The notes below the pieces were generated by a model that searched no databases, had not been told where the DNA came from, and was given only the letters and a program-made list of their open reading frames with translations. From contig JADZCJ010000024.1 of NCBI GenBank assembly GCA_020851635.1, forward strand, positions 1 to 64,000: DNA of 64,000 nt, written 5' to 3'. The DNA is from Anaerolineae bacterium. GTDB taxonomy: Bacteria > Chloroflexota > Anaerolineae > UBA4142 > SHND01. The position numbers and the translations under genes are program-made. Positions 33,583 to 37,280 of this stretch are shown here, piece by piece. Position 1 is the first letter of the stretch. Each line of letters opens with the position of its first letter.

Positions 33583-34473
33583 CTATTTGACACGCCGCAG
33601 ACGATTCATCAAGTCGCCTAAACCGGATTTGCGGGTCTGTGTGCGCGCCCGGACTGAGCGGACCCACGCGTGATACGCGTCAATGTCTTGAGGCGCAAGA
33701 TACGCTGCTTGAAAACGCACCCGTTCGCCCCCCGCCATCAATATAAAATCACCGCGCCCCGCGAGTTTTTCGGCGCCATCGTAGGTCCCCGATTGTTTGC
33801 CGACGAGGCGCACGGGAAAATTGCCGCGAAGGGACGCATACAAATCGGACGCGTTTGGCTTGTTGGCGCAGACGATGAGTGAGATGCCCGCCATACGCCC
33901 GCGCCGGGCGAGACGCGCCAAGTGGACCTGGAATTCGCGGCCGCCGGGCGTGAGAAATTCTTCAACCGCGTCAATCACGACAACAAGACGGAGACTGGCG
34001 ACGCGTTCGCTTTCACGCCGTTCGAGCTCGTTCTCCAACCAACGTAATCGCTGCAAGCCGCGTTCGGGTGTGGTGGCAATCTCACCCAAGAGGTGAGGAG
34101 CGGCAGCGAGAAATTCAAATGACGCGCCGCCGGGGTCCAGGAGCAACAGTTGAATCTCGCGCGCTTTTTGGTAGAGGACGATGGAAGCCAGAATTGTGCG
34201 AACTATTTGAGTCTTGCCACTGTTCTTGACACCTGATATGAGTACATGCGCCACATCGGGCGAGGCGAGCCGGATCATGAGCGGGACGCCGTCAGCGGCG
34301 ATGCCCAATAGAGCTGTGCCCGGGACCTGAAGCGCATGATAGAGCTGGGCATCACCGTTCATTTCGCGGGCGAGATCGAGAAAACTGACGCGGCGAGCCG
34401 CTGTGTGCGCGCTAGCGAGCTGGGGGCTGGATCCGAGAGGTGATAAGCGCGCGGTGTTGGATTGGATGGTCAT
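33583..34473 (-). CDS. Orphan FtsK/SpoIIIE-like motor domain
   Basis: 296 aa without membrane helices. Residues about 45-290 match the RecA-like part of the FtsK/SpoIIIE motor: Walker A ISGVKNSGKTQ (Gly81-Thr88), Walker B LVVVIDAVEEF (Asp168), the ARRGRMAGISLIVC block, and the late GRGDFILMAGGERVRFQAAY segment. The residue after the Walker B Asp is Ala rather than the usual Glu, and the ATQRPS motif reads CANKPN. There is no DNA-reading gamma domain. Such proteins occur in conjugative or secretion settings and as cellular FtsK fragments. ATP binding is likely; hydrolysis is uncertain. Confidence 0.75.
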   Translation of the reverse strand: MTIQSNTARLSPLGSSPQLASAHTAARRVSFLDLAREMNGDAQLYHALQVPGTALLGIAADGVPLMIRLASPDVAHVLISGVKNSGKTQIVRTILASIVLYQKAREIQLLLLDPGGASFEFLAAAPHLLGEIATTPERGLQRLRWLENELERRESERVASLRLVVVIDAVEEFLTPGGREFQVHLARLARRGRMAGISLIVCANKPNASDLYASLRGNFPVRLVGKQSGTYDGAEKLAGRGDFILMAGGERVRFQAAYLAPQDIDAYHAWVRSVRARTQTRKSGLGDLMNRLRRVK

Positions 34474-34959: not shown

Positions 34960-35889
34960 CTAGTCGGTCCAGCCGACGCAGCGTTCATAATCAATGGTTT
35001 CCTGGTAAGCGCCTGCGGCGGCTTGCATGCCGAGGGGAGAGTAGATAATGTCGGAAACGCCGTCGGCATCGGGTTGAACGGCTTGCGGTTTGAAAGGACT
35101 GTTGGTGGGCGTCCCGGCGGCTTTTTTGTTCATCTGGCTCGCTAGCCACTCTTTCATTTGAATGATTTTTGGTTTGGTTTCGGGTCCGGCTTGCGCCGCG
35201 ACTTGCGCTTGTTGTTCCTGCGCGAGGCGTTCGATTTCGCGCTGTCGTTTCTCTGCTGCCTTGCGTTCGGCGGTTGCCCTGGCGCGCGCAATCAGGTCAT
35301 TCGCCATGCCAACATCAATCGAGGCGGGTTGAGCAGAGGCACGCGCGGTGGCTTCTGAGATGGTCTGATGTTGCGCAGCGGTTGGTGTGACTGATTCACC
35401 AATTGGTTGTGCCGCGTTCAAACCGGCGGCGGCTTGCGTGCCGCGCACAGCAGAACGGGACGAGCGCTGCGGTGCAGCTGCGTGCGGCGCGATGATGGCA
35501 GGTCCGGCGCCAGCGATGGGCTGCTTGCTGCGATGTGCGACCTGAAGCGCGGTTTGCGGGATAACGTTGGGCAGCCGAATCGGACAACCCGCGCAATCGC
35601 GCGGTGAATTGATCGGCATGGTCTTGGCAGCACAGGCAGCTTGCTTGAATTCGATGGTCGGCGGAGCGTTGTTCCAGACCTCAACGCGTCCCGTGGCAAA
35701 GCGAACCGTGATGGGCGTCGAGGTCTTTTTCTCTAACCCTGCGCGCAGATTCTGACAATTGATCTGTGAAACCGGGCATGCGCGGCACAGCTGCACAGAC
35801 ACTTCACGGTCGCCACTTTTGATGATGCCGCAAAGGATGCGACCGTGATTGTCCACCTGGCGAAAATGACAGGGCTTGAGTTCGTCCAC
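34960..35889 (-). CDS. Cysteine-rich protein with central disordered region, unknown
   Basis: 309 aa from GTG 35889. Eight cysteines cluster in the first 105 residues: C7, C20, then CRACP near 35-39 and another near 45, and later C85, C98 and C101 (DCAGCPIRLP). Such spacing suits one or two zinc or Fe-S sites. After an Ala/Gln-rich stretch comes a charged helix (about 200-235, RARATAERKAAEKRQREIER) and a C-terminal tail. No family recognised. A 16-bp inverted repeat lies 13 bp upstream of the start. It sits in the LexA-like gene's transcription direction and may be co-regulated. Confidence 0.65.
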   Translation of the reverse strand: MDELKPCHFRQVDNHGRILCGIIKSGDREVSVQLCRACPVSQINCQNLRAGLEKKTSTPITVRFATGRVEVWNNAPPTIEFKQAACAAKTMPINSPRDCAGCPIRLPNVIPQTALQVAHRSKQPIAGAGPAIIAPHAAAPQRSSRSAVRGTQAAAGLNAAQPIGESVTPTAAQHQTISEATARASAQPASIDVGMANDLIARARATAERKAAEKRQREIERLAQEQQAQVAAQAGPETKPKIIQMKEWLASQMNKKAAGTPTNSPFKPQAVQPDADGVSDIIYSPLGMQAAAGAYQETIDYERCVGWTD

Positions 35890-36090: not shown

Positions 36091-36702
36091 TTATTCAGGG
36101 CGTTTGCGCAGAATTGCGAGAACTCGACCGCGAATTTCCAAATCGGAAAGCTTGTAATACTGCGGTTGAGTGTCGGGATTGGCGGACTCGACGCGGTAAC
36201 GACCGTTTTGGCGATAGATGTGCCGCAGGGTGGTGCGTTTGGATGATTTCAAATAGATGGCGAGCATGTCTCCATCGCAGAATTGGTTGGTGCGTTTGAC
36301 GACGACGAGATCGCCGTCATCAAGAGTGGCATCACGCAAGGACTGCCCGCGCGCACGCAAGAGAAATGTGTCCTGTTCGTCTTGAAAGAGTTCGGCGGCA
36401 AGGCGTCCCAACTCATCGGATGGCTGCATCTGTTCCGCAGAGTTGAAATAGGGGAGGGGAAGGGCGTTTTGTCGCGCCCGCACCTGTGGTGACTTGAGCA
36501 GCACGATGCTCTTGCTGACACGCGGTTTGAACGAGATGTAACCGTCACGTACGAGGCGTCGCAAATCGCGCGAGACATGGTCGGTCGAACTGATGCCAAC
36601 GGCGGCGCCAATTTCTCGAAAGGTTGGCGAGCGGCGATTCTGCTGCTGGTATCGCTCGACAAAGGTGAGGATTTGCGCGCCGTGTTCGTCTAGCTGTGTC
36701 AT
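36091..36702 (-). CDS. LexA-like repressor with degenerate autoprotease domain
   Basis: 203 aa from ATG 36702. The N-terminal winged helix (about 1-65, with SPTFREIGAAVGISS) is typical LexA. The S24-type C-terminal domain keeps Ser121 in RARGQSLRDATLDDGD. The catalytic Lys position (TVK in E. coli LexA) reads TLR, Arg160, and no Ala-Gly cleavage site is visible: the aligned region reads LPLPYFNSAEQ. It may therefore not cleave itself normally. Two GAAC-N4-GTTC boxes, of the Gram-positive SOS type, lie in its promoter, implying autoregulation. Whether it is the main LexA or a paralogue cannot be told here. Confidence 0.85.
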   Translation of the reverse strand: MTQLDEHGAQILTFVERYQQQNRRSPTFREIGAAVGISSTDHVSRDLRRLVRDGYISFKPRVSKSIVLLKSPQVRARQNALPLPYFNSAEQMQPSDELGRLAAELFQDEQDTFLLRARGQSLRDATLDDGDLVVVKRTNQFCDGDMLAIYLKSSKRTTLRHIYRQNGRYRVESANPDTQPQYYKLSDLEIRGRVLAILRKRPE

Positions 36703-36805
36703 GATTTTGTGTCCTCGGCAGAGCCGTCCGGCTCTGAACAATATAGTGGGGTGACACAGAACAAGGAGTGAGACACACCTGTTCGTCTGGTACGATCGTT
36801 GAGTA

Positions 36806-36817
36806 GAACGAGCGTTC
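36806..36817. promoter_or_regulatory. SOS-type operator 2
   Basis: GAACGAGCGTTC, a perfect GAAC-N4-GTTC box, located around the predicted +1 of the lexA-like promoter. Its centre is 27 bp from operator 1. Confidence 0.75.
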
Positions 36818-36823
36818 TATTGA

Positions 36824-36852
36824 ATTATAATAGAACAAGTGTTCCAAGTCAA
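36824..36852 (-). promoter_or_regulatory. lexA-like gene promoter
   Basis: Minus strand: TTGACT (36852-36847), a 17-bp spacer holding operator 1, TATAAT (36829-36824). The predicted start is near 36817, with a leader of about 115 nt. Confidence 0.75.
36833..36844. promoter_or_regulatory. SOS-type operator 1
   Basis: GAACAAGTGTTC, a perfect GAAC-N4-GTTC box inside the spacer between -35 and -10 of the lexA-like promoter. LexA bound there would block RNA polymerase. Confidence 0.78.
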
Positions 36853-36956
36853 GAGGCGCGCGAGGAATTTAAGGTTTGGCGTAGAAAGAGAGCTGGGAAG
36901 GGAAAGGAAAACCGGAGACGGGAGGTGAGGAGATCGGGGGAGTGCGCCGAAAGGGG
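36853..36956. other. Purine-rich gene-free stretch
   Basis: Between the lexA-like promoter and the rpsT terminator the plus strand is strongly G/A-rich (for example GGGAAGGGAAAGGAAAACC). A short plus-strand reading frame over it has no ribosome site and biased composition; I see no gene here. Confidence 0.5.
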
Positions 36957-37007: not shown

Positions 37008-37280
37008 TCATTTTGCATTGGCGGCGGTTTTGCGATAGCGCTTGACAAGGCGAGATTTTTTGCGGGCAGCGGTGTTTTTGTGGATGATGCCTTTGCTGAC
37101 CGCCGAGTCAAGTTCGATCTGCGCCATGCGAATTTCGTCCAGCGCGTTTGCTTCGCCATCGTCAATGGCGACGGTCGCGCGCTTGACGACTGTGCGCGTC
37201 TTGGATTTGACCAGACGATTGCGCGAGCGGCGGCGGGTGTTTTTGCGAATTTCTTTTTGGGCGGATGCCGTATTTGCCAA
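37008..37280 (-). CDS. rpsT: Ribosomal protein bS20
   Basis: 90 aa with a TTG start at 37280. The Shine-Dalgarno GGAGG lies 8 bases before it and the protein then begins with the typical ANTASAQKEIRKN. No ATG in frame gives a sensible N-terminus. All-helical and very basic, with NRLVKSKTRT and the C-terminal KSRLVKRYRK. It binds 16S rRNA early in 30S assembly. Single gene, convergent side closed by a strong terminator. Confidence 0.93.
   Translation of the reverse strand: MANTASAQKEIRKNTRRRSRNRLVKSKTRTVVKRATVAIDDGEANALDEIRMAQIELDSAVSKGIIHKNTAARKKSRLVKRYRKTAANAK

Follow-up and report, generated by a model that had tools for sequence, protein, structure and literature searches.

A predicted non-cleavable LexA paralogue under SOS-type boxes, carried beside a canonical LexA in a genus of Anaerolineae

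In the textbook SOS response, damage destroys the repressor, and the E. coli lexA(Ind-) alleles S119A, G85D, and K156A, which make LexA uncleavable, block the response. How, then, is a LexA-like gene to be understood that lies under SOS-type boxes and seems to lack the means of self-cleavage? Such a gene, here called lexA2, occupies positions 36091..36702 (minus strand) of the window, the whole stretch of 64,000 nucleotides analyzed, from an Anaerolineae bacterium (Chloroflexota). An earlier note, made from the sequence alone, described a LexA-like repressor with SOS-type boxes in which the catalytic Lys and the Ala-Gly bond are missing. That description was confirmed, and what it said of Ser121 had to be corrected.

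The LexA2 protein and its catalytic residues

lexA2 encodes a protein of 203 amino acids, starting from an ATG at 36702. Pfam LexA_DNA_bind (PF01726) covers residues 1-63 (41 bits against a cut-off of 23.7), and Peptidase_S24 (PF00717) covers residues 99-194 (63 bits, above its cut-off). The DNA-binding domain, residues 1-70 (36493..36702, minus), carries the recognition helix motif S39-T-D-H-V-S-R-D-L. The AlphaFold model has LexA architecture (mean pLDDT 80), and its best PDB matches by Foldseek were LexA structures, with E values down to 2e-13. Against TIGR00498, the NCBIfam LexA equivalog model with a cut-off of 110.95 bits, the product scored 104.4 bits and its five orthologues in the genus 97.6-106, all under the cut-off, whereas the canonical LexA of the same genome (LexA1, see below) scored 167 and two cleavable LexA2 proteins of the sister family 148 and 140.

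Alignment with canonical LexA was unambiguous at the general-base position, where TTLK is replaced by TTL-R160. The Lys of the Ser-Lys dyad is thus Arg160 (codon CGG, 36223..36225, minus), as the earlier note had read it. That note had also raised the possibility of a shifted Lys near the active site. None was seen, the nearest being K155, five residues away and immediately before a predicted strand at 156-165, and the invariant T158-L159 fixes the register of TTL-R, which rules a shifted catalytic Lys out. At the expected scissile position stands Ala89-Glu90 (36433-36438, minus), although the cleavage-loop alignment of LexA2 is ambiguous; none of the six LexA2 proteins of the genus has Gly there, in keeping with the reported lack of an Ala-Gly bond. 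Ala89-Glu90 lies within residues 74-92, which are disordered in the model (pLDDT < 50), and within a degenerate cleavage-loop region, residues 71-96 (36415..36492, minus), that is the fastest-evolving part of the protein.

The nucleophile position tells a different story from the one first proposed. Ser121 (codon TCC, 36340..36342, minus) is indeed kept in the window protein, but in this species only: the other five genomes of the genus all have Ala. Residue 160 in those five reads R/R/K/C/R, and the sole orthologue with Lys160 has Ala121, so that none of the six has both dyad residues. Because the orthologues in the genus also lack the dyad, five of them with Ser replaced by Ala, the Ser121 of the window is probably a remnant or a reversion and not a retained nucleophile. 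On the tree, whose support inside the genus is modest, one loss of Ser with a later regain in the window lineage is more parsimonious than several separate losses. From these comparisons it is near certain that LexA2 of the genus is non-cleavable, and a test of RecA-stimulated self-cleavage is predicted to be negative.

Cleavable orthologues, gene order, and selection

Each of the six genomes examined from the genus has a lexA2 orthologue with an intact frame, and the recognition helix S-x-D-H-V/I-x-R-D is kept in 12/12 lexA2 genes of the order. LexA2 proteins with the same helix signature that retain Ala-Gly, Ser, and Lys, and are thus of the cleavable type, were found outside the genus, both in the sister family within the order and in two more families of the class (loci L035, L037, L044, L046, L047, L048, L120, and L134); for those of the sister family the assignment rests on the tree, the recognition helix, and synteny. 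In the tree, lexA2 and lexA1 form separate groups (support 100/100), and a long stem branch, of 1.66 changes per site (per alignment column), lies under the lexA2 of the genus. Since the sister-family orthologues retain all three elements, autoproteolysis was evidently lost on the branch leading to the genus, from a cleavable ancestor. As a separate observation, relatives in family f3 (L122, L124, and L125) encode a canonical-looking LexA with Ala-Ser replacing Ala-Gly, and a second, divergent LexA-like gene lies close by.

The surroundings of lexA2 are conserved as well. Upstream lies rpsT, encoding ribosomal protein S20 (37008..37274, minus; synteny and profile match). Downstream, by synteny in both families, lies a gene for a Cys-rich protein (34960..35889, minus) that had no Pfam or NCBIfam match and was assigned to no family, followed by a gene for an FtsK/SpoIIIE-type ATPase (33583..34473, minus), a paralogue of which adjoins lexA1. 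The order rpsT, lexA2, Cys-rich ORF, FtsK-like ATPase is common to both families, and the lexA2 genes of the two are therefore orthologues at one chromosomal locus. murJ, prfA, and prmC (names read from translations) are also near. An origin as a prophage or phage CI-like repressor was ruled out by this conserved order of core genes. In one genome (G014, L034) a homologue of the Cys-rich protein adjoins lexA1, an arrangement that duplication of a lexA-CysORF-ftsK cassette could have produced.

When the window gene was compared with its closest relative, approximate dN/dS came to 0.11 for the gene as a whole, 0.06 in the DNA-binding domain, and 0.23 in what had been the cleavage loop; the values are rough because dS is near saturation. 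By this measure the DNA-binding domain appears to be under strong purifying selection and is the most constrained part of the protein, the former loop being the least. The C-terminal dimerization domain is also under purifying selection, its catalytic function having been lost.

Promoter boxes and the canonical LexA

The lexA2 promoter (36824..36852, minus) consists of TTGACT (36847-36852) and TATAAT (36824-36829) 17 bp apart, an exact match to TTGACNNNGAACNNNNGTTCNNNTATAAT, with an SOS box filling the spacer. Two boxes of the form GAACNNNNGTTC are present: box 1, GGAACACTTGTTCT, between TTGACT and TATAAT (36832..36845, minus), and box 2, AGAACGCTCGTTCT, just downstream of the -10 element (36805..36818, minus). 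The earlier note had called both perfect, which holds for the GAAC/GTTC cores of both, but box 1 departs by one flank base from AGAAC..GTTCT. Composition alone would yield ~0.9 such core sites per 64 kb and ~0.0006 pairs within 50 bp. A TTGACNNNGAACNNNNGTTCNNNTATAAT-type promoter with boxes precedes lexA2 in each of the six genomes from the genus, and the double-box layout is common to 12/12 lexA2 promoters examined in the order. Double boxes of this pattern occurred 44 times in 20 genomes from the order, against 2 for a reversed control pattern. Single AGAACN4GTTCT sites in the whole window genome numbered 11 against 7 for the control, a count too weak for defining a regulon, and paired and promoter-embedded boxes were therefore used.

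Just upstream of the Shine-Dalgarno sequence GAGGA (36712-36716, minus), the leader can form a 7-bp hairpin (36719..36736, minus). Comparison of the window with the leaders of L006-L010 found pairing conserved in 42/42 cells across the six genomes, with 5/7 pairs changed on both sides. Because compensatory changes keep it in all six, the hairpin is probably a real RNA element. Leaders of lexA2 in the sister family are shorter than those of the genus. Most lexA2 promoters of the order also carry a TTAAA...CGCGC element ~10-20 bases upstream of the -35 (window about 36855-36875, minus), possibly an UP element, and TTAAGG stretches resembling it occur near some other SOS-box promoters (L017 and L021).

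The earlier note had proposed looking for a second lexA, and one was found: contig C84 of the window genome (G000) encodes a canonical LexA, LexA1, with Ala-Gly, Ser, and Lys. LexA2 is thus not the lone LexA of this organism. It might have been the sole one in G001, where no lexA1 was seen, but that absence was discounted since the contig ends just short of the place that lexA1 occupies in G002. LexA1 and LexA2 share only ~30% identity, and the recognition helix of LexA1, S-T-S-V-V-N-Y-N, was found in 17/17 sequences.

GAAC-type boxes also lie in the promoters of recA and of a NurA-domain gene in the window genome, which makes a working SOS regulon likely there. In 6/6 genomes of the genus, a gene of the lexA1 region that encodes an FtsK/SpoIIIE-like ATPase carries two SOS boxes in its promoter (G000:C84:44033-44068, L025 and L154, with equivalents in G001-G005). 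Box pairs persist near ftsK or mraZ (names inferred from position and neighboring motifs) in G008 and G017, relatives in which only lexA1 was found; for this reason LexA1 plausibly reads double boxes alone. The box cores and promoter geometry of lexA2 equal those of lexA1. On the basis of its promoter, SOS control of lexA2 is strongly supported as a prediction.

SOS-type boxes were also seen at a division cluster. In G000 a box lies just upstream of mraZ, at the head of the cluster (L022, G000:C53:62947), and double boxes enclosing TCCCAC/GTGGGA (MraZ-like) motifs occur in sister genomes (G006, G007, G011, and G016-G019), which suggests that the cluster may be under SOS control.

A possible two-LexA circuit and its rivals

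The sequences show an inactive site that cleavable orthologues still have intact, a gene held under purifying selection, a promoter with SOS-type boxes, and a canonical LexA encoded elsewhere in the genome, and together these suggest a repressor that may be switched on by damage rather than destroyed. Binding by LexA1 and LexA2, SOS induction of lexA2, and a role as brake or relay are steps that we infer from them. It could well be that LexA2 is an SOS-controlled, RecA-insensitive paralogue, repressed by LexA1, that acts as a brake and/or relay. We propose more tentatively a two-LexA circuit, in which destruction of LexA1 would switch on RecA-insensitive LexA2, which would then shut SOS promoters or separate genes. 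LexA1 would repress lexA2 via the two SOS boxes; DNA damage would activate RecA, LexA1 would cleave itself, and lexA2 would be transcribed. Lacking both a cleavage site and a functional Ser-Lys dyad, LexA2 would not be inactivated by RecA filaments. Its dimer would bind GAAC-type operators at its own promoter and possibly at other SOS promoters, and would limit the output or duration of the SOS response or meanwhile repress a separate gene set. Recovery would come from renewed repression by LexA1 together with dilution or ordinary turnover of LexA2, so that the SOS switch would set the synthesis of LexA2, not its destruction.

Parts of this arrangement have precedents. Canonical LexA (that of E. 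coli, and LexA1) resembles LexA2 in its winged-helix domain, its S24 fold, and the operator-type boxes in its promoter, but keeps Ala-Gly, Ser, and Lys, whereas LexA2 is without intact cleavage machinery. The E. coli lexA(Ind-) changes fall at the positions altered in LexA2, but those are laboratory mutants of an only LexA, and LexA2 is a natural, genus-wide paralogue. The LexA of Synechocystis sp. PCC 6803 is natural, has neither the Ala-Gly site nor the Ser, and is described as the LexA of that organism, with no SOS involvement (PMC3091678, PMC4759255); in the genome studied here there is a canonical LexA as well, and the gene for the paralogue lies under SOS-type boxes. In Leptospira, LexA2 is an additional LexA, and both it and LexA1 bind the promoter of its gene; it keeps Ser, Lys, and a Cys-Gly bond, disappears after UV, and is encoded in a prophage-like region (PMC3789691), whereas the Chloroflexota lexA2 lies in a conserved core-gene neighborhood and its product lacks the dyad and the scissile Gly. 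Deinococcus likewise offers two LexA homologues within one genome; in D. radiodurans both are cleaved with RecA, and the damage repressor DdrO is removed by a partner protease, the conserved IrrE (PMC8072749), whereas an IrrE-type partner is not conserved in genomes with lexA2. Non-cleavable LexA (Synechocystis) and cleavable second LexA proteins (Leptospira and Deinococcus) are thus already known. In the literature searched we found no natural LexA paralogue that is uncleavable and has SOS-type boxes in a genome also encoding an intact LexA, an absence that is not proof, and nothing useful on a K156R LexA. Evolution appears here to have retained the DNA-binding half of a repressor and an SOS-type promoter and to have discarded self-destruction, beside an intact LexA. 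If the reading is right, a natural uncleavable LexA would be made on damage, a duplicated sensor having become an effector, in a circuit that is directly testable with the cleavable sister orthologues as ready controls.

The main rival is that LexA2 is a constitutive, self-regulated repressor with a small regulon of its own, uncoupled from DNA damage, the boxes being mainly its own operators. The Synechocystis protein offers a precedent (PMC3091678, PMC4759255), and the recognition helix is distinct and invariant in all lexA2: D41, H42, R45, and D46 are invariant in LexA2, whereas STSVVNYN is almost invariant in LexA1. These differences fall at most of the positions that contact bases in E. 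coli LexA (3JSO complex), for which reason LexA2 may not bind the operators of LexA1. The box spacers point the same way. The central 4 bp have the form R..Y in 12/24 lexA2 boxes, 24/26 ftsK boxes, and 17/17 lexA1 boxes (Fisher p = 0.001 for lexA2 against ftsK), and the deviation is greatest in box 2 of lexA2, where 4/12 fit. The lexA2 boxes may accordingly be tuned to LexA2 itself, the central bases being unlike those of the ftsK and lexA1 boxes. The R..Y criterion, taken from the Gram-positive consensus, was chosen post hoc and the boxes share common ancestry, so that the difference is only a hint, suggesting that both LexA2 and LexA1 use the lexA2 boxes. Against the rival, the shared cores and geometry and the ftsK boxes of lexA1-only relatives make control of lexA2 by LexA1 hard to avoid. 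We consider a purely constitutive repressor possible but rather unlikely.

The earlier note had suggested a repressor released in another way, by a partner protease or other signal. IrrE/PprI inactivates DdrO in this manner. A repressor unable to cut itself could have to be removed by some other route, and several of these genomes do encode M78 proteins. In a single species, the gene for such a protein, of the HTH plus M78 (IrrE-like) type (L160, G005:C390), is preceded by a promoter with a double SOS box. M78 matches were, however, absent from G001 (93% complete) and G004 (95%), both of which carry lexA2 and which make up two of the four lexA2 genomes with completeness of 90% or more and contamination of 5% or less; in G002 and G003 the matches were weak. 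No M78 gene lies beside lexA2, and the fast-evolving loop shows no conserved linker motif that would indicate a site of cleavage. With two lexA2-carrying genomes missing it, a dedicated IrrE-type partner is improbable. Moreover, since the boxes are of the canonical LexA type, SOS can switch synthesis, and no release of LexA2 is required. Of the earlier interpretation, then, the loss of self-cleavage is well supported and extends to the whole genus, and an alternative release is not where the evidence leads.

It is less probable again that LexA2 acts chiefly by way of LexA1, altering the cleavage or DNA binding of that protein as its heterodimer partner or its competitor. Purifying selection on a dimerization domain that has lost catalysis would fit such a role, but the low identity between the two proteins does not, and the invariance of its DNA-contact helix suggests that LexA2 binds DNA itself.

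Some self-cleavage might persist if Arg160 served as an unusual base or if a Lys had shifted into place, and the Ser121 of the window protein speaks for this. We think it very improbable: in the orthologues Arg or Cys is paired with Ala121, the Lys-bearing one also has Ala121, and there is no Gly and, in the model, no ordered cleavage loop. That lexA2 is a decaying pseudogene or evolutionary remnant, as its long stem branch and lost catalytic residues might suggest, is hardly credible and was rejected on dN/dS, which at ~0.1, and lowest in the DNA-binding domain, indicates purifying selection, with the frame intact in 6/6 genomes and perfect promoter boxes in all.
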